Part shown: positions 11,901 to 32,778 of the stretch, in pieces
Position numbering within the stretch: position 1 is the first letter of the stretch
Layout: each line of letters starts with the position of its first letter
Assembly: GCF_000226095.1 (NCBI RefSeq)
Contig: NC_016473.1
Coordinates: 2,108,001-2,172,000 of the forward strand
Direction of reading: 5' to 3'
DNA: 64,000 nucleotides
DNA from: Thermothelomyces thermophilus ATCC 42464
Taxonomy: Eukaryota; Ascomycota; Sordariomycetes; Sordariales; Chaetomiaceae
Notes under the pieces: generated by a model
Seen by the model: only the letters and a program-made list of their open reading frames with translations
What the model was told of the DNA's origin: nothing
Databases searched by the model: none
Program-made: the position numbers and the translations under genes

Positions 11901-12917
11901 CTTGCGTGTGGATATGGATGGCAGTGAAATCGTTCTCTTGAGATAGGGTTGCTGGATGATAAGCTTGTCCTGACTACTTGTAGTAATTATTAAGTCGAAA
12001 CTAAACGATTGAATGGAGCGGGGAACGGGTGTTTAAATTAGTTCTTGAGAAGAGAGAAAGATGGAGGTTCAAGTCGGGAGAAAGCCTCGGCTAGGTGTGC
12101 TTAGTGTAGGCCCTTCAAGCCCGGAATCAATCAGGTTGAGCAGTAACTAGTCCGGGCCGAGATATTAACCCAATCGGTCTTGTTATACGGATAGTATGAG
12201 TCTTATCGGTGCCTGGGTTTGATCTTTGTTACATAATCGCCCGTTGGTTCAGCGTGCCAAGCAACAAACGGAGAATGACTGGGGACTGCGGCGGGGTGCA
12301 GTTTCCGCATGACAGATTCCTTTGGAGCCTAGCCGTTATTCTATCCAAACATCCAACCAACACAGGCATGCGCACAAAAGAAAGCGCTGGCAATGAATGA
12401 CAATCGCAGTGGGGATTGGTAAAAGGACATGCAGATGCATGCAGTCAGATTCACTTACGAGTTGATCACAAAACACAAATGTTTCCTGAGCACGATCCTA
12501 ACATTTTGAGAACTCTCTGGGCAGCCCAGTCACCTCGGTTGCTTCACTGTCTTGGAGGCAAGAAATATGACTAAACGAGAATAGAAAGTTTCCAAAGACC
12601 GGGCATGAAAACTGCACAAGCTCTCATCATTTAGCCAATCCGGCATGGCAATGTCCACTCAACATTTGCGTCTCATTACTACTGTTAATGCCGAGCTAGC
12701 TGGCGATCTCGGCCCCCGCGATGCAATCCCCCTCTCTCTCTCTCTCTCTCTGTCTGCCCGACAAAAAAATGTAGCTCCACTTTCTTCGACCAACACTCTA
12801 CGGAGTACATCTCCACCACAACCATCATTAAACATAAACTCGAACAAACCAGCTTGGGCTGCGCATCCCAATGCGGCTCCGCCCCCCACCCCCCCTGCAA
12901 AAAGAAAGAAAAAAAAA
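11901..12917. promoter_or_regulatory. Divergent upstream region of the AIG2-like gene and YIH1
   Basis: About 1 kb between divergent starts. The part next to YIH1 (12645-12917) has a CT microsatellite at 12729-12751, the motif TACGGAGTAC at 12799-12808 and an A-rich leader just before the ATG. The YIH1 frame stays open upstream to 12645, but the low-complexity translation there does not look like protein. Confidence 0.5.
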
Positions 12918-13832
12918 ATGTCCGAAGCGCTGGTTGACGAGATAGAAGCCATCAACTCCATCTTCGGCGACGGGACGCTCGCGCGGGAGCAGGACGACGA
13001 CCTTTCCGTCTTCGTCCTGACCCTCCCCGGCGACACGGCCTCGCTGCGGCTGCAGTTCCCGCCCGAGTACCCGGACGTCCCGCCGGCCGTCCTGGGGACG
13101 CACAGTGCCGGTTCCGCGGGCAAGCGCGGCGCCGCCGCTCGCCACCTGGCCCTGTTCCGGGATGCCGTCGGCGAGGTGTACGAGCCGGGGCAGGTGTGCC
13201 TGTTTGACGCCATAGAGAAGGTGCGGGAGCTGCTCGCGGCCGCCGGGGAGGGCCGAGGGGAGAAGGGGGAGGAAGGGGGGGAGGGGGAGAGGAAGGAGGA
13301 AGAAGAAGAAGGAGAAGAAGGCGGAGGAGGAGGCGAAGGCGGCCGGGGCACCGCCGCGTCCTCCTCCGCCTCCTCCTCTCTGGCCCTCGGTCTCGGCCCG
13401 CCGCCGCCCTGGACCGTCTCGGCGCCCTTCGTGGAGAGCAAGTCGACGTTTGTCGCCCGCTGCGCGCCCGTCACCTCCCCCTCCCAGGCGGCCGACTTCC
13501 TCGCCCACCTGCTGGCCACGGACAAGCGGGTGCGGACGGCGACGCACAACATCACGGCCTGGCGCATCCGCGGCCCCAACGGGACCAGCTTCCAGGACTG
13601 CGACGACGACGGGGAGACGGCCGCCGGCGGCCGCCTGTTGCATCTCATGCAGCTTATGGACCTGTGGGACACCATGGTCGTCGTCACGCGCTGGTACGGC
13701 GGGCAGAAGCTGGGGCCGAGGCGGTTTGCTCTCATCAACCAGACCGCCAGGGACGCCTTTGTGAGGGCGGGGTTGGTGAAGGAAGAAGGCGCCGCTGGGG
13801 GTGCAGGTGGGAAGAAGAAAGGGGGGAAATGA
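12918..13832 (+). CDS. YIH1: Yih1/IMPACT homologue (RWD + UPF0029), Gcn2 regulator
   Basis: A single-exon 304-residue protein. Yih1 binds Gcn1 through its RWD domain and keeps Gcn1 from activating the eIF2-alpha kinase Gcn2, damping general amino-acid control. The N-terminal part MSEALVDEIEAINSIFGDGT to about residue 105 is an RWD domain (YPDVPP loop, then CLFDAIEKVRELL). A linker of roughly 45 residues is almost entirely Glu, Gly and Arg, followed by Ala/Ser. The C-terminal UPF0029 domain starts at FVESKSTFVARCAPV and carries the family signature DDDGE...LLHLMQLMD and VVVTRWYGGQKLGPRRF. I chose the ATG at 12918 because the RWD begins at once; the frame is open farther upstream but is not protein-like. 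The polyacidic linker is longer than in yeast Yih1 and follows a purine-rich DNA tract. Confidence 0.88.
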   Translation: MSEALVDEIEAINSIFGDGTLAREQDDDLSVFVLTLPGDTASLRLQFPPEYPDVPPAVLGTHSAGSAGKRGAAARHLALFRDAVGEVYEPGQVCLFDAIEKVRELLAAAGEGRGEKGEEGGEGERKEEEEEGEEGGGGGEGGRGTAASSSASSSLALGLGPPPPWTVSAPFVESKSTFVARCAPVTSPSQAADFLAHLLATDKRVRTATHNITAWRIRGPNGTSFQDCDDDGETAAGGRLLHLMQLMDLWDTMVVVTRWYGGQKLGPRRFALINQTARDAFVRAGLVKEEGAAGGAGGKKKGGK

Positions 13833-24215: not shown

Positions 24216-27195
24216 ATGCCGGGTTTCGCAGAATCGTTTTGGTCAAACGACTACGCCGCAGGTAAGCCGACCCCCCCCCCCCCCAAAAAAAAAAAAAAAA
24301 AAAAAAAAAAAAGAAGAAGAAGAAGAAGAAGAAGAAGAAGGGGGTGACAGAGAAGGAATCTTTTCAGCGCTCGTATCACAACTAACTGAGTGCAAGGACT
24401 GGGCGTCCTGTTCGGCAAGCTACAGCAAGGCATCGTCGAGAACCGGCAGGTCCTGACGATTGCCCGCATGCGCGCCGAAGCCGAGGAGATCTACGGCCAG
24501 CGGCTTTCCGAGATCGCCCCTGCGGTCGACAAGATTCAAGGCGGGTTTGACCGCGACGATGGCGCCAGCGTGCGCAAGGCGTACGAGGGCGTACGAGCCG
24601 AGATGGAGGATGCGTCCAGGAACCACAAGAAGATTGCGCAAAACATCCGCGACTTGGTGGTGAATCCTTTCTCCCGCTGGTGCGAAGCCCACGAGGCCCG
24701 GATACAAGACTCGCAAGAGGAGCTGCAAGCGCGGATCAAAGCCCACGACAAGCAGGCCGAGACCGTCAAGAAGCTCAGGAGCAACTACTTCAACAAGTGC
24801 CGCCTCGTCGAGGACCTCGAGGAGGAGAACAAGCTGGCCTTCCAAGACCCCGAGTCGAGCCCAAAGCAGAACATCCCGGCCATCAAGGTCAATCAGGACC
24901 CCGCAGAAGAGGAAGAGCCGCTCGAGATTGGCGACGTGTTGTATACCCCAGAACAGGTCAAGAAGATGCTGTCGCACATGCTCGCGACCATCAAGATGGG
25001 CGAGACCAAGGTTCCCATCCTCGGGACGTACCAAAATACCTCTGCCGGCGCCGATATCGTGGAATACATCCAGCAGCACATGGGAGCCACCAGCGTGAGC
25101 CACGCCGAGAGGATCGGCCAGGACTTGGTCACTCACGGCTTCCTGCGCTTGGTCGGCAACGTGGGCAACACGTTCGCAAACAGCTCCAAGATGTTTTACC
25201 AATGGCGGCCCAAGGCCTTCGAGACGGCCGGCGTCCCGGAGAAGAAGGCGCTCGGGAGGACCTTCTCGATCCCCGTGGGCGGATCAGAGAGCGGTGACTC
25301 TCCGGTGGTTGGCACCGTGACCGAGTATTTGGCCAAGTGGGACGTCCTCAACACCTCGCGACCGAACGAGACGCCGGCCGAGCGCATGCGCCGGGAGGCC
25401 CGGGAGGCCGACGAGCGCTACAAGGTCGCGGTCCAGAAGCTGGACGAGATGCGCTGCGAGTTGGAGGAGGCGATCTACATGCACCTCAAGTTCCTCGAGC
25501 GCTGCGAGCTCGACCGGCTCAAGGCGATCAAGACGGTCATCCTGGACTTTTCCGGAACCATCAGCAATGTGATTCCGAGTCTTCAAGCCACCGTCGACAA
25601 CATGATGCTCTTCCAGGAGACGGTACAGCCGCTCGGGGACCTGCGCTACCTCCTGGAGAACTACCGCACGGGCAGCTTCATCCCCAAGGTTGTGGTCTAC
25701 GAGAACTACTACAACAAGGTTGACGACCAAACGTTTGGCGTGGACCTCGAGGCCCGCGCCAGGGCCGACCGGAAGCGGGTCCCCATCATCATCACCACCA
25801 TTCTTACCTACCTGGACCATCACTACCCTGATCTCGAGGGTGACGAAGCCCGGAGAGGGGTGTGGTTGGTGGACGTCCCGCTTTCCCAGACACACAAGCT
25901 GAGGGCCAAGGTCAACAACGGACAACCGCCCGCACTTGAAATGTTTGCCGAATTTGATATACCCACGGTCGCCAGCCTCCTGAAGCTCTACCTCCTCGAA
26001 CTTCCCGGTATGTCCCGCTGCTCGTCGGCAAGAGTGGCTAGATAGAGAGAGCATACACTAACAACAGGTGCCAGATTCCCTCGTCTCCTCGCACGTCTAC
26101 GAAATCATCCGGACCATCTACAATAGTCCGGCAACGGAGGGGGGTGATGCTGCGCGCATTCCTGTCCTGCAGCAGACCCTTTCCCAGCTACGCCTCACCA
26201 ACATCGCGACGCTTGATGCTTGCATGAACCACTTCACGCGCTTGATCGACCTCACGTCGGCAGACGAAGAATACGTTCAGAAGCTAGCGACTACCCTCGC
26301 CCCCTGCATCCTGCGTCCTCGCACCGAGACGTCGCTCACCATGGAAGAGAAGCACGCCTATCGCCTGATCCGGGATCTCTTTGCGCACAAGGACGCCATC
26401 TTCAATGAGCTGAAGCGCCTGTCGACCATGAACGCGTCTGGCTCTGGCAAGGGTAACCAGGGCCGGCCACGTGCAATCTCCACCGACGAGAGCAACCGAA
26501 AGGCGCACATGGAGGAGCGCAACCGGGCAATCCTGGAGAAGGCGAGCGGTAGCCGGAGCCGGGCGACCTCGCCGGCCCCGAGCCCCCGTGCCCACCGCCG
26601 CGACAGGAGCGTCGGCGGACCCGAGACCCGGTTCCCCATCTCGACGAGCAACATCTCCAGCCCGACCAGCGAGCACAGAAAGCGCACCAGCCTCGGCCCT
26701 AACCTCCCCAAGCGGACCAGCCTCGAGGTCCCGGGTGAGTCGGACGCCAGCATCGGCCTGAGCCACCCGTCCGACGGCAACTTCATCATGAACGGCGTCA
26801 GCGCGACCGTGGCGGCATCATCATCATCATCTGCTGCTGCCGCCGCCGCCTCTGCCGCCTCCGCAACCCCGGCAACGCCGCCGTCCACCTCGGCCGCAAC
26901 GGCGACGGACCCGCAACTGGCCAAGGTCGCCGCCGCCGCCGGGGGGCAGGAGGGCACGGTGGAGAAGCGCAACAGCCTGGGGCGGAGCGGCGCCCGCTTC
27001 GGGTCCGGCCGGCGCGTGACGCCCGCGGCCTCGGCGGCCGCGCGGACGGCCGCGCCTCCGCCGCACCACCAGCATACGGGGAGCGGATCCCAGTCGTCCT
27101 CACAGGCGCAGGACCACCAGCAGCAACAGCAAGGCGGTGCCCGCCATGCGCATCAACATAGTGTCACGCTCGTGGACGCGCCCATGGACGATTGA
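24216..27195 (+). CDS. RGD2: Rgd2-type Rho GTPase-activating protein (F-BAR, DEP, RhoGAP)
   Basis: Three exons: 24216-24261, 24397-26007 and 26075-27195, for 925 residues. It opens MPGFAESFWSNDYAAGLGVL, the start of an F-BAR domain (about 1-185) whose last helices (about 330-425) lie after an inserted DEP domain (about 218-288, LGTYQNTSAGADIVEYIQQH). This interleaved order is that of yeast Rgd2, a GAP for Cdc42 and Rho5 at the cell cortex. The RhoGAP domain spans about 460-660; the splice at 26008-26074 rebuilds LKLYLLELPDSLVSSHVYE. The nearer AG at 26067 would break the frame, and the one at 26074 keeps it. The segment that should carry the arginine finger reads GVWLVDVP. The C-terminal 250 residues are Ser/Ala/Pro-rich and probably disordered, ending near a Gln/His stretch. 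Intron 1 contains 14 C, 28 A and a run of AAG triplets. Confidence 0.88.
24271..24340. repeat. Homopolymer and AAG tract inside RGD2 intron 1
   Basis: Fourteen C (24271-24284), then 28 A (24285-24312), then nine or so AAG/GAA triplets to 24340, all within the 135-nt first intron. The branch site ACTAAC lies at 24381-24386. Confidence 0.9.
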
Positions 27196-28277
27196 TGATG
27201 ATGGTTTTCATCGGGCGGGCGGGTTCCGTCATGTCGTGATGATGGATGGATGGAGATATGCATAGACGAAATGATGCGATCGATGCGATCCTGTGACGCT
27301 CCGAGAGAGTTGTCATTCTACCAAGGAGAGGACGTGTAGTACCGGAGAAGAAGGACAAGAAGAAAAGACATGATATCATGATGGCTAGCTAGCGTGCGGG
27401 CGGGAGCGAGCGAGCTGGGGCGGTTGGGTTGCTATGTATCTCTCTGTCTGTTCCACACATATCCTGTATCGGTTTTTTTTTTTTTCTTCTCTCAGGAGAT
27501 GTTGGCCTTCCCTCTGTTCCTTTGCCAAGATGATGACGTCCTTCCCAAGTCTCCTGCCCTCTCTGTCTGAGAGTTCGTTCAGGCTGGCGCTGCGTTTGTG
27601 GTCGACTGCTGAGAAGTTCGTGGGCTAAGTTGTTTGGCTTTTTGCAAGGGCGGTAAGTCGGTATGACTCCGTCTCATTGACGGGCAACCTATTTTGACTT
27701 GGCAATTCCCTTCCGGCGTTGCGCCGCTAGGTGAAAGTTGTGCAAAGCAGGTATGTTACATAGCTCATCCCAAGCTGCGCCGAAGCTCTTGCAGATGCGC
27801 TTTCTAGCCTCGGCGAACAGAAAAACACAGATGGTTGATCCAGGGGCAATTCCTTTTTTGAGTCACGCCGTGCTGACCTTTTTGTCCGTCCTCATCCTCG
27901 TCTCCACACATCCGTCCTCGAACTCGTGCGTTTCTCCTACTCTCCTCGACTCCATCGTGTAAGCAGAGGCCGTCCTCCTCGGGCTTTGTGTTGTTCGGAA
28001 GTCACCAACCCAATGCCACGCACAATCTCAAGCGTCAATCGCCGGGTTATAAAACGGTTGCGACACCTCTCTCCTTCCAAGATGTCTGAGGAACAGAAAC
28101 AACAACACTCTTCCGCCTCACCAAGGCAGCATACCTCCCTCTGTACCCTAGACGTTTTAAGCGGTAGCGCATTCCTTTGTGACAACGCTGACACCCCACG
28201 TCTCACTCACATATCCCATTCGTTCTCCTTCACACGACTCATCTGCCCAATTGACGAGGATACACCACCACCGCACA
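27196..28277. other. Intergenic between RGD2 and rvt
   Basis: About 1.1 kb with GATG/CGATG-type simple repeats near 27195-27290 and a T-run near 27473-27484. The last few hundred bases are pyrimidine-rich and CACC-rich, ending in ACCACCACCGCACA before the rvt ATG, as in many fungal leaders. Confidence 0.55.
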
Positions 28278-30917
28278 ATGGCTTCTACCGACATCCTGTC
28301 ACAGACGCTGTCGTCCATCACAACCATCAAGCTCGAGCAGCTACAGAAGCAAAAGGAAGCGTACAAGACGAAGAAGCGCGCCCTCCATGAGGATGTCGCC
28401 GCCGAGCGCGACACGGCCAAGAGAACCAGGAAGCTGCTCAAGGGGTACGAGGAACTCCGGTCTCTCGGACTCCAAAACAGCCCGACACTGTCGAGCCTGG
28501 ACGAGTTCCTCGACCAGGCCGAGTACGATCCGTCCGTCAGCGAGCCCCTGCTGAAAGAGTACGAGGCCGAGGTGCGCCACTACATGGACGCCCTCACCAA
28601 CAGATACGAGTTCGCCTCGCTCTACGGCAAGCTCGTGGAGGAGTGGATCGCGTCGGGCAGCAGCGACGCGGACGCCGCCGATGGCTCCGACGTCGTCGTC
28701 GTCGGCCGCGAGGAGATGCACCAGCAGCGCGCCACCTGGGAGGCGTACGTGTTCGAGGCCAAGGAGACGGACGGCACGGCCATCAAGGCGTACCTCGACG
28801 ACGTGTTCTCGTCCAAGGAGGCCAAGCGGGCCCTGGACGACGTCAGAAAGAGCTTTGAGTCGTGGCAGAAAGAGTGGAAGAATCGGGTCCACTTCGACGA
28901 GAGCACGCTCGAGGCCGCCATCGCGGGCATGCTGCGGAGCGACATCCTGACGGAGGAAAAGCGGACGACCCTGAGGGACTTCAAGACGAACAAGGTGGTC
29001 CTCGCCGAGATCGCCGACGTGCTCAACATGCGCATGTCGGCCATCGCAACCTGGACCTGGGGCGCTCCTCTCGTCGTGGAGCAGCGCCGGAACCTCAACG
29101 GCCGGTACCGCTTCTACACGGACGAGGACCTACTGCACTCCATCTTTGTCTACTACGTGGGCCTGCAGTGGGCGGTGCAACTCCGCGGCGCACTCATGGG
29201 CTTTATCGAGAGAGAGGGCGTCTGGAAACCCGACACCAAGCTCATCTCCAAGGCGGATGCCCGTCGCCGCCACTTCTTTCTTGACACGACCACCCTTCTC
29301 CATCCGAAGTCCGTCCAGGCAGCGCGAGACTCTCACTTCCGCCGGATTCTCCTTGACCAACTGCCTACGTCGGTTGACGAGGTCAGGGGCTCGTACGGCA
29401 GTCTCGGAGACGAAGAGGGCGACAACAAGCCGAGCCACGTCGCCGTGGTCCAGGACCTTCTGCATCGGCTCCAGACCGAGATTATCATGCGGACGAAACT
29501 GGGGAGCGACGTTACCGTCATCCGCTCCGACTTCAAGTGGTTCGGCCCATCGCTCCCGCACTCCACCATCTTTGCCGTTGTCGAATATTTCGGCGTGCAG
29601 GCGGAGTGGATCGACTTCTTCCGGCGAGTGCTCGAGACGGACTTGAAGTTCAAGCAGGACCCGCCGGATACTGCTGCGCGGACCCGGAAGCGCGGAACGC
29701 TCATTTCGACCCCCCTGGCCGACTTCTTCTCCGAGTCCATCCTGTTCTGCCTCGACTACGCCGTCAACCAGCAGGCGTCCGGTACGCGCTTATATCGCCT
29801 GCACGATGACATGTGGCTCTGGGGCAGCTCCGACGCTTGCGGCAAGGCGTGGAGTATCGTCACAAGGTTCGCCGATATTATGGGCCTCGAGCTTAACGCG
29901 GACAAGACGGGCTCTGCGCTCATCGTGGCGAAGAAGAACACGGCCGCATCCACAGCCTCGTCGGGCTCGCTTCCCCAAGGCGACGTGAAATGGGGGTTTC
30001 TGAAGCTGGATCCTGCCACCGGCCGCTTCCTGATTGACCAGGAAGAAGTGGATAAGCACGTCAACGAATTGCGCCGGCAGCTGTCCGCCTGCCGGAGCGT
30101 GCTGGACTACATCCAGGCGTGGAACATTTACGGCCACCGCTTCTTCTCCAACAACTTTGGTAGGCCGGCCCACTGCTACGGCCGCGCCCACATCGACAGC
30201 ATGCTGGCGACCTTCAAGCGCATCCAGACCGCGCTCTTCCCCGACCACCCGGGAGGCGTCGTCGAGTATCTGAAGCGCACAATTTCCTCCCGCTTCGGCA
30301 TCCCCATATCCGACATACCCGACGGCTACCTCTACTGGCCCTCCTCGATGGGTGGTCTTGGCCTGCAGAACCCCTTCGTCTTCCTCCTCGTCAACCGCCG
30401 GGAGGTGACCGAGGATCCAGAGAAGCTCATGGATGAGTACCTCGAAGCGGAGGAGCTCGCCTACGCGCGCGCCAAGGCCCGCTTCGAAGGTGACCTCTCC
30501 TTTTCTTCTTCTGACGAAGACGACGCCGCACCCCGGAACTACACAACCTTGGACGCCGATACCTGGCGCAACAAGCCCGAGTTCGCGGACCTGCAGAGCG
30601 AACCCTTCATGTCGCTGGCCGAGTACACCCGCTACCGCGAGCGGACCGTCGGGCGTCTCGGCGACGTCTACCGCAAGCTGATCGGCGAGCCGGAGGAGAC
30701 GTTGCTCGAACCCAGTGGCGAGATCGCCGCAGTGTTTGTTGCCCAGAAGAGGTTGGTGAAGTGGGACGAACTGAGCCCCTACGAAAAGTGGGTCGTGCAG
30801 CTGTATCACAAGGACATGATCGGCCGCTTCGGAGGCATTGACGTGGTAGACCAGGGCCTGCTGCCCGCCGGACTGATTGGGATGTTGCGTCAGAGTCGCT
30901 TCCGCTGGCAGGAGTGA
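28278..30917 (+). CDS. rvt: RVT: single-copy domesticated reverse-transcriptase-related protein
   Basis: A single uninterrupted exon of 879 residues. Residues 1-60 are a charged helical coiled-coil-like region starting MASTDILSQTLSSITTIKLE. The polymerase core follows: motif A with Asp418 in IRSDFKWFG, motif B RGTLISTPLADFF (472-484), motif C LHDDM with Asp510-Asp511, motif D GLELNADKTG (536-545) and an E-like KWGFLKLD (571-578). All three catalytic Asp are present. There is no endonuclease, RNase H, gag or LTR around it, and the frame is intact with codon use like its neighbours. This matches the rvt genes of fungi and some other eukaryotes: host genes distinct from known retroelements, polymerising NTPs/dNTPs in vitro, with unknown cell role. 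The C-terminal 250 residues (YLYWPSSMGGLGLQNPF and beyond) are typical of fungal rvt. I chose ATG 28278; the frame is open 33 codons upstream but not protein-like. Confidence 0.88.
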   Translation: MASTDILSQTLSSITTIKLEQLQKQKEAYKTKKRALHEDVAAERDTAKRTRKLLKGYEELRSLGLQNSPTLSSLDEFLDQAEYDPSVSEPLLKEYEAEVRHYMDALTNRYEFASLYGKLVEEWIASGSSDADAADGSDVVVVGREEMHQQRATWEAYVFEAKETDGTAIKAYLDDVFSSKEAKRALDDVRKSFESWQKEWKNRVHFDESTLEAAIAGMLRSDILTEEKRTTLRDFKTNKVVLAEIADVLNMRMSAIATWTWGAPLVVEQRRNLNGRYRFYTDEDLLHSIFVYYVGLQWAVQLRGALMGFIEREGVWKPDTKLISKADARRRHFFLDTTTLLHPKSVQAARDSHFRRILLDQLPTSVDEVRGSYGSLGDEEGDNKPSHVAVVQDLLHRLQTEIIMRTKLGSDVTVIRSDFKWFGPSLPHSTIFAVVEYFGVQAEWIDFFRRVLETDLKFKQDPPDTAARTRKRGTLISTPLADFFSESILFCLDYAVNQQASGTRLYRLHDDMWLWGSSDACGKAWSIVTRFADIMGLELNADKTGSALIVAKKNTAASTASSGSLPQGDVKWGFLKLDPATGRFLIDQEEVDKHVNELRRQLSACRSVLDYIQAWNIYGHRFFSNNFGRPAHCYGRAHIDSMLATFKRIQTALFPDHPGGVVEYLKRTISSRFGIPISDIPDGYLYWPSSMGGLGLQNPFVFLLVNRREVTEDPEKLMDEYLEAEELAYARAKARFEGDLSFSSSDEDDAAPRNYTTLDADTWRNKPEFADLQSEPFMSLAEYTRYRERTVGRLGDVYRKLIGEPEETLLEPSGEIAAVFVAQKRLVKWDELSPYEKWVVQLYHKDMIGRFGGIDVVDQGLLPAGLIGMLRQSRFRWQE

Positions 30918-31968
30918 GTGAGGGAAGAAAAACGGACGCGGAGGATCTTTAGCTTTAGTTTGCCTTCATGTATTTGCAAAGTCTAATATTAGAGTATTAG
31001 TTCCTTCCTTGGCGTTTTGAGGAAAGAAATTCGTGTATTCAATAGATCGATACACCCCTCATATGACACCCGAGTGAGCGAACATACTAGGGATCTGAAT
31101 CCGTGCCCGAGGTTCCGTTTATGAGACTTAATTATAGTGGCGCTCCGGGGTTGTAATCGGCGCTCGTACAAGGAGCGTAGATATTAATTCTCCGCTAAGT
31201 GGCTTTGGCCGTATAAGTCGACTTTAATGCTGCTGTGGACTGCAAGCCATGCAAAGGGCGCCGACGTCAAGTTCGGTCTCGCACGACGAGAAGGCGCGAA
31301 TCCGGTGTGCGAAGAAGAAAATCGTTTCACTGTTGGGCACGTGGGTTTGACAATTGTTAACGACGGCCCAAATGCACCTTCCCATAATGTTAGATAATTA
31401 TTAATACCCACAGCACGCAAGGCAGCCAAAGTTAACCCCCGTCCCGAGTGTTAGCTACAGCGAGCTGTTTTAGCAAGAGGAAAGATTTACTCCCTCTGTT
31501 TTGGGACTCACCCGCATAGCGATACCTTTGATAGGGGCAGGAGAAGCACGAGAAATATCAGGAACGTCATCTTTCTAATAGCTTTAAGGTCTCGTTGAAT
31601 CCGGCGCCGATCGAGTCACCTGACTAGATGAATTATTTAATTAATTATTCTCAGTTCGCAAATCAAACAAAGTGCACGAAATCAAAGCCGTTTCCCGCTC
31701 TTCTGTTCCGCCCTATTCCTTCCTCTCAATTATCCTGACCAAGTCGAGTAATGTGACGTCAGACTGTAGTTGTTTCGCGTTTCTCACTAATTTCTTACCA
31801 TCACCAGCCTAGAGTAACTTGCGGCCCATTTCGTAACCCTGCCTTTTCGGTAATTAATAATACTGCGTAGCTCCCAGGCGACTGACAACCGCAGCATTTG
31901 AGCTATTAATTACCCAAATTCAAATTTGCCCACCTTACCGATTGCATTTGCTCCATCATCTGGATAGA
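30918..31968. other. AT-rich intergenic region
   Basis: About 1 kb, visibly AT-richer than the genes on both sides (ATTATTTAATTAATTATT near 31631-31650). No coding frame seen. The composition fits RIP-altered repeat remnants, but I could not recognise the source. Confidence 0.5.
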
Positions 31969-32778
31969 ATGGGACTGAAGAAGCGCAGACGTACCAGCAA
32001 CGCCAAATCCAAGTCGTTGCCAAAGGCAACAAAAGAGCCGGAGCGTAAAGGAACAAAGACGCCCTCCTCAACCCGAACGCGCGCCCGCGGGCCCACCATC
32101 AGAGCCCCCTTCACCCCTTACCCACCGTCCAAGGTCTACCGCCTCATCGAGCCGGGCCCCGTCCTGCTCGTCTCGACGGGCCCGGCGCCGTCCCCGGCCG
32201 GCAGCCCCAGCGGTGACGACAGCTCCACTCCCTCCTCCTCCTCCTCCTCCTCGGCGGCGGCGGTGGCGGCGGCGTACGACATCAACCTGATGACGATGGG
32301 CTTCCACATGATGCTGCAGCACGGGTCGCCGCCCCTGGTGGCGGCGTGCATCGGGCCCTGGGACGCGACCTACGCGCGGCTGCGGGCGACGCGGGAATGC
32401 GTGCTGGCGGTGCCGAGCGTCGAGATGGCGCAGACGGCGGTGGACATTGGCAACTGCAGCGCGGCCGAAGACGGCATGACAAACAAGTTTGAGAGGTTCG
32501 GCCTCGCCGCGCTGCCCGCGGAGAGGGTGGGCGCGCCGCTGGTGGGCGGGGAGCATGTGATTGCCAACGTGGAGTGCGTGGTCGAGGACGACGCGATGGT
32601 GGACAAGTACGGCCTGTGGGTGTTGAGGGTCGTCAAGGCGTGGGCCAATCCGGCGTTGATGCCGGGCCAGGGCGGGAGGATGTTCCATCACAGGGGGGAT
32701 GGCACGTTCAGCGTGGATGGCGAGGAGGTGTTGGACCTCAGGGAGAGGATGGTCAAGTGGAAAATGTTCCAGGATTGA
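31969..32778 (+). CDS. Flavin-reductase-like (FMN-binding split-barrel) protein
   Basis: A single-exon 269-residue protein starting MGLKKRRRTSNAKSKSLPKA. The first 50 residues are strongly basic (possible nuclear or mitochondrial-type targeting, undecided). The body begins at PYPPSKVYRLIEPGPVLLVS and has the DIM6/NTAB flavin reductase pattern: INLMTMGFHMMLQHGSPPLV, then GPWDATYARLRATRECVLAV and NKFERFGLAALPAERVGAPL. These proteins bind FMN and often reduce flavins or act with partner oxygenases; the substrate here is unknown. A Pro/Ser/Ala-rich insert (about 75-102) splits the first strands. The coding part is very GC-rich, while both flanks are AT-rich. Confidence 0.8.
   Translation: MGLKKRRRTSNAKSKSLPKATKEPERKGTKTPSSTRTRARGPTIRAPFTPYPPSKVYRLIEPGPVLLVSTGPAPSPAGSPSGDDSSTPSSSSSSSAAAVAAAYDINLMTMGFHMMLQHGSPPLVAACIGPWDATYARLRATRECVLAVPSVEMAQTAVDIGNCSAAEDGMTNKFERFGLAALPAERVGAPLVGGEHVIANVECVVEDDAMVDKYGLWVLRVVKAWANPALMPGQGGRMFHHRGDGTFSVDGEEVLDLRERMVKWKMFQD

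Follow-up and report, generated by a model that had tools for sequence, protein, structure and literature searches.

An rvt gene of Thermothelomyces thermophilus, its diverged paralog and the residue at their steric gate

By its sequence, an uninterrupted open reading frame (ORF) of Thermothelomyces thermophilus is a genuine rvt gene, an ordinary member of a poorly understood family, and not a retroelement. The ORF lies in a 64,000-nucleotide stretch of DNA (C2:2108001-2172000, hereafter the window), and the genome that was searched comprises 38,744,216 bases in 7 contigs. This kind of gene is already known. What is new is that the genome carries two diverged copies, that the residue at the steric gate differs between these fungal proteins and their bacterial relatives, that motif B of the copy in the window contains a leucine, and that a TGAGTCA site is located upstream of this copy. 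With moderate confidence, we read the gene as encoding a cellular rvt polymerase that would make short strands independently of any external primer and template, would accept ribonucleotides and would serve as a stress-response enzyme.

Family membership and the catalytic core

The initial annotation described an ORF of 879 codons in a single exon, and the reading frame bears this out. The ORF opens with an ATG at 28278, closes with a stop codon at 30915-30917 and contains neither an in-frame stop nor an intron. The start codon is backed by the paralog on contig 7 described below, as the N-termini of the two proteins align. D418 and the motifs quoted earlier, RGTLISTPL, LHDDM (508-512) and GLELNADKTG, proved correct when their codons were rechecked, and reverse transcriptase (RT) motifs A to D are intact (Table 1).

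Table 1. Locations of the two rvt genes and of features in and near the copy in the window (window positions unless a contig is given)
Feature	Location	Strand	Remarks
rvt coding sequence	28278..30917	+	879 aa + stop, one exon; UG37 match; aligned over its full length with the contig-7 protein and nine from bacteria
Motif A catalytic Asp D418	29529..29531	+	Invariant in 11/11 proteins; codon checked
Steric-gate position D418+5 = Gly423	29544..29546	+	Gly here, Ala in contig-7 copy, Tyr in 9/9 bacterial rvts; codon checked
Motif B RGTLISTPL (472-480)	29691..29717	+	L475 where contig-7 copy and nine bacteria carry Pro
Motif C RLHDDM (507-512), catalytic D510 and D511	29796..29813	+	R507, D510, D511 invariant in 11/11
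Motif D GLELNADKTG (536-545)	29883..29912	+	G536, L537, N540, K543, G545 invariant in 11/11
Tyr835, candidate C-terminal priming tyrosine	30780..30782	+	Tyr here and in 9/9 bacteria; Glu in contig-7 copy
Tyr843, C-terminal tyrosine	30804..30806	+	Invariant in 11/11
TGAGTCA, Gcn4/CPC1-type, possible regulatory site at -419	27859..27865	+	The window (64 kb) holds one further TGASTCA
Upstream ORF	28013..28390	+	Starts at -265, second in-frame ATG at 28082 (-196), ends 113 bases inside rvt, out of frame
Contig-7 rvt (L005)	G000:C7:2455464-2452505 (end coordinate includes stop codon)	-	Product of 915 aa; interrupted by two introns; full set of catalytic residues retained

Searches against profiles, including one of rvt type, place the protein clearly. 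The PADLOC model RT_UG37 matches residues 12-702 with an E value of 2.3e-62 and a score of 209.1 bits. The second-best PADLOC model, RT_UG17, reaches 16.8 bits (E 5.9e-4), and UG37 is ahead of all other RT profiles by ~190 bits. For comparison, Pfam RVT_1 scores 13.9 bits, which is under its cut-off of 29.6, and Pfam reveals no further domain. Searches of NCBIfam and PHROGs gave chance-level matches only, and no PDB entry was significantly related to the protein (best E 0.12). We take UG37 to be the bacterial rvt, since bacterial rvt is reported from Chloroflexota (Herpetosiphon, credited to Yushenova and Arkhipova 2018) and UG37 matches were found there.

At a threshold of E 1e-20, UG37 is present in 11 of 301 Chloroflexota genomes, a sample centered on an Anaerolineales record, and in 0/395, 0/292, 0/294 and 0/296 genomes from four other phyla, zeros that are no proof of absence. 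Two of the 11 genomes yielded fragments only and were dropped, leaving nine near full-length proteins (L062-L070) for alignment. Six of the nine are 83-96% alike, and the set therefore represents about four lineages. All nine can be aligned with the fungal protein along its entire length at 20.2-21.6% identity, and 44 columns, including D418, G473, E486, R507, D510, D511, N540, K543 and Y843, are invariant in all 11 proteins (the two fungal copies and the nine from bacteria). Judged from these alignments, a UG37 match of this strength together with 44 columns invariant in fungus and bacteria indicates more than a chance resemblance. The rvt/RT_UG37 proteins of Chloroflexota also have the C-terminal tyrosines in common with the fungal gene. 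They differ from it in overall sequence (about 21% identity), in the gate residue (Tyr versus Gly), in motif C (xVDD versus LHDD) and in motif B (Pro versus Leu). No rvt relatives were detected in viral contigs (queries P0001, A2 and A3; three motif-C pattern matches are not rvt), in plasmids and phages by tblastn, or in genome contigs with query A1, and 46 stretches that fit a motif-B pattern include no rvt at E 1e-3.

The profile ranking, the RVT_1 score below cut-off and the end-to-end alignment with bacterial rvts uphold the earlier identification of the gene as an rvt, as opposed to a LINE, a group II intron, a telomerase or an LTR element. We rejected a retroelement reading on the RVT_1 score, the dominance of UG37 and the lack of any further Pfam domain in the protein. 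The initial annotation calls the enzyme domesticated, and among these element classes no mobile ancestor came to light. Mobile-element parts had not been noticed near the gene before, and a Pfam scan of 20 of the 35 window ORFs of at least 260 aa likewise found no transposon domain. Among the 150 RVT_1 loci that were scored, of 1117 candidates in the genome, none falls in the window. The genome also holds no near-identical copies of the gene, as judged by a protein search and by a nucleotide search with the 5.6 kb around it; the latter stretch has one other genome match, of 57 bases at 84%. The LTR-type RTs of this genome resemble rvt in having an RT palm and an xxDD motif C, but they differ in their RVT_1 scores (up to 138.6 bits), their many copies and their Tyr gate. 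Many of the 150 scored loci have equal scores, and many carry stops. Some loci with 1264 or 1287 aa of open frame stand beside others with several stops, such that intact and decayed elements coexist. Twelve sampled copies have an identical motif A and belong to one LTR-type family.

An N-terminal coiled coil is a feature of rvt proteins, and the N-terminus of the protein in the window aligns with those of family proteins. Its first 55 residues include no Gly and no Pro, and a low-confidence single-sequence model suggests a helix at 3-62, although the structure model of the protein as a whole is unusable (mean pLDDT 36.9). The coiled-coil-like character previously ascribed to this region is not supported by two crude tests, in which its heptad periodicity is no better than that of shuffled sequences (724/2000 and 546/1000 of which reach it). 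Bacterial L062 passes one of two crude heptad tests (8/1000 shuffles). Between the aligned area around R278 and motif A, the alignment shows a long stretch of the fungal protein.

A second, diverged copy on contig 7

The initial annotation called the gene single-copy, but for the gene family this is incorrect. A search of the genome with the protein recovered, in three exon pieces, a second full-length rvt on contig 7. Its introns are of the GT-AG type and measure 103 and 109 nt, and the spliced product is 37% identical to the protein in the window over its whole length. A UG37 search of the genome at E 0.01 detected both genes and revealed no third locus. The paralog belongs to the same length class as the window copy, but differs from it in its two introns, an Ala gate, the motif B sequence RGVPMAH and a Glu at the position of Tyr835.

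Both copies retain the residues of the family equally well. The window copy shares 19 columns with the nine bacterial proteins that the contig-7 copy does not (one of them a gap in the latter), and the reverse is true of 16 columns. Selection on the gene had been proposed earlier, and constraint is backed by the 44 invariant positions and by this equal retention in the two copies. For the pair, the NG86 method gives a dN of 0.71 and a dS of 1.27 over 860 codons, and 38 of the 80 fourfold sites of conserved residues have the same third base. Because these values are near saturation, the dN/dS of the pair is not used here as an argument.

The RVT of Neurospora crassa is said to be the type case of the fungal rvt genes, credited to Gladyshev and Arkhipova 2011. 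The gene in the window is like this type in that it is an immobile cellular gene of a filamentous fungus, with an RT palm, large extra N- and C-terminal parts and no mobile parts. The rvt class is described as single-copy, typically with one gene per genome, whereas two diverged copies are present in the genome studied here. In one article, the term single-copy is applied to the rvt genes of bdelloids (PMC3520738). Copy number is a usual property of rvt genes and does not exclude membership in the class.

Steric gate, motif B and C-terminal tyrosines

The steric gate of RTs is the residue five positions past the motif-A Asp, as exemplified by D110 and Y115 of HIV-1 RT. At this position (D418+5), the window copy has Gly423 and the contig-7 copy has Ala464, in contrast to Tyr in all nine bacterial rvts. 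Tyr also occupies the gate in all 12 members sampled from an LTR-type retrotransposon family of the same genome, which count as one observation because they form one family, and two unrelated bacterial RTs have Phe. An error of register is unlikely, since the flanking residues align without gaps. Both fungal copies are without the bulky gate residue that usually restricts such enzymes to DNA building blocks. The Neurospora RVT reportedly prefers NTPs, and the bacterial RVT of Herpetosiphon is reported to prefer dNTPs. A gate of Gly or Ala versus one of Tyr could explain this difference in preference. A literature search found no publication on the steric gate of rvt; the primary papers were outside its scope, and the observation may be in print.

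The change in motif B is confined to the window copy, in which Leu475 replaces the Pro that is present in the other 10 of the 11 proteins. When three residues of a 90-aa fragment were changed toward PMSH, the UG37 score rose from 31.5 to 41.3 bits, an increase that does not isolate the effect of the Pro because the three residues were changed together. Given the loss of the Pro and the higher score obtained on this change toward the family, the activity of the window copy may be changed.

A C-terminal domain with conserved tyrosines is a characteristic of the bacterial rvt protein. In the fungal pair, the two tyrosines have different fates: Tyr843 is kept by both copies, and Tyr835 by the window copy (Table 1). 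A further article counts the work on bacterial rvt among tyrosine-primed systems (PMC12632851).

Proposed activity, alternative readings and possible regulation

In the mechanism that we favor, the protein has an N-terminus predicted to be helical, a large section ahead of motif A, a full RT palm with three catalytic Asp residues and a C-terminal domain with conserved tyrosines. In vitro, rvts are reported to polymerize nucleotides with Mn2+, in a self- or end-primed manner. The enzyme described here most likely needs no external primer and template for the short strands that it makes, and is predicted to start on its own C-terminal tyrosine or to extend free ends, with Mn2+. Acceptance of ribonucleotides is proposed because the steric gate is Gly, and polymerization of NTPs would follow. 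The gene would be kept for a response to stress, with its product plausibly switched on when translation or the supply of amino acids fails, and induction under starvation is thus predicted.

A bolder version, which we put forward only tentatively, sees fungal rvts as RNA builders by virtue of an opened gate (bacterial Tyr to Gly or Ala), with the two enzymes of this genome divided in initiation and regulation. The window copy would then be the one that retains both tyrosines and combines a changed motif B with a Gcn4/CPC1-type site, and the contig-7 copy the one that has lost a tyrosine and whose upstream 1 kb contains no site of this kind.

The TGAGTCA at -419 is a hint only, because the probability of at least one TGASTCA in the upstream 1 kb is 0.186 under a first-order model and its presence is not beyond chance. 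No TGASTCA is located within 1 kb upstream of the contig-7 rvt, where the nearest lies at -1765. The ORF that overlaps the start of the window copy is a possible means of translational control, which would require a transcript that begins ahead of it. The contig-7 rvt likewise has an upstream ATG with a frame that overlaps the start of the gene. A search of the literature for data on expression or CPC1 targets yielded nothing on rvt.

It is quite possible, although we do not favor it, that the two genes are subfunctionalized paralogs, in which the contig-7 gene keeps the ancestral rvt job and the activity of the intronless copy has changed, perhaps becoming weaker or differently initiated. Such a division would be consistent with the loss of the motif-B Pro in the window copy alone, with the Glu that the contig-7 copy has where the window copy and all nine bacteria have Tyr835, and with the restriction of TGASTCA within 1 kb upstream to the window copy. 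The near-equal numbers of family columns kept by the two copies, however, argue against it. A catalytically dead remnant or a retroelement fossil is very unlikely. The missing Pro and the lack of introns in a gene whose paralog has them would fit this reading, but the 879 codons are open, the three Asp, the motif-D Lys and the 44 family-wide invariant residues are intact, and many retroelement RTs of the genome, in contrast to rvt, carry stops. We rejected a dead copy on the retention of the catalytic and invariant residues.

The neighborhoods of the bacterial genes bear on a further reading, in which fungal rvts have bacterial candidate-defense RTs as ancestors, or a common ancestor with them, and counter viruses or mobile RNA during a block of translation. 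PADLOC lists UG37 under DRT (defense-associated RT), but this label reflects filing and not a tested function. Among four distinct bacterial contexts that were scanned, one has a TIR/beta-helix gene that matches defense models directly upstream of the rvt on the same strand (L090:8705-12780), and another has an LRR gene (L086). Against this, just 1 of 10 neighbors at the four loci matches a defense model, and the upstream neighbor in 6 of 9 bacterial loci is the housekeeping gene hisG, 28-29 nt away on the same strand (L087, L088, L089, L092, L093 and L094, all of one close clade). These neighborhoods are too little to call UG37 a defense gene, and we consider an immune-type polymerase improbable. 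The hisG neighbor is noteworthy because the Neurospora gene is said to respond to histidine starvation. At another bacterial locus (L091:888-4621), the rvt is touched on its upstream side, start to stop, by a gene whose 447-aa product matches nothing in Pfam or PADLOC.

A gate residue that separates the fungal pair cleanly from the bacteria permits a direct and cheap test of why the reported nucleotide preferences differ. Two diverged rvts in one genome, one of them with a possible starvation-control site, provide a natural contrast for finding the role of rvt enzymes in the cell.

The mention of YIH1 in the earlier description of the window is borne out by a UPF0029+RWD (YIH1/IMPACT-like) protein encoded in one open frame at 12609-13829. 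Its link to rvt amounts to proximity (14-15 kb), and the Gcn4/CPC1-type site is a slightly better hint. Just upstream of rvt, F-BAR, DEP and RhoGAP domains are distributed over two consecutive open frames (24390-27192) that are probably one gene, and downstream of it a Flavin_Reduct protein is encoded at 31861-32775.
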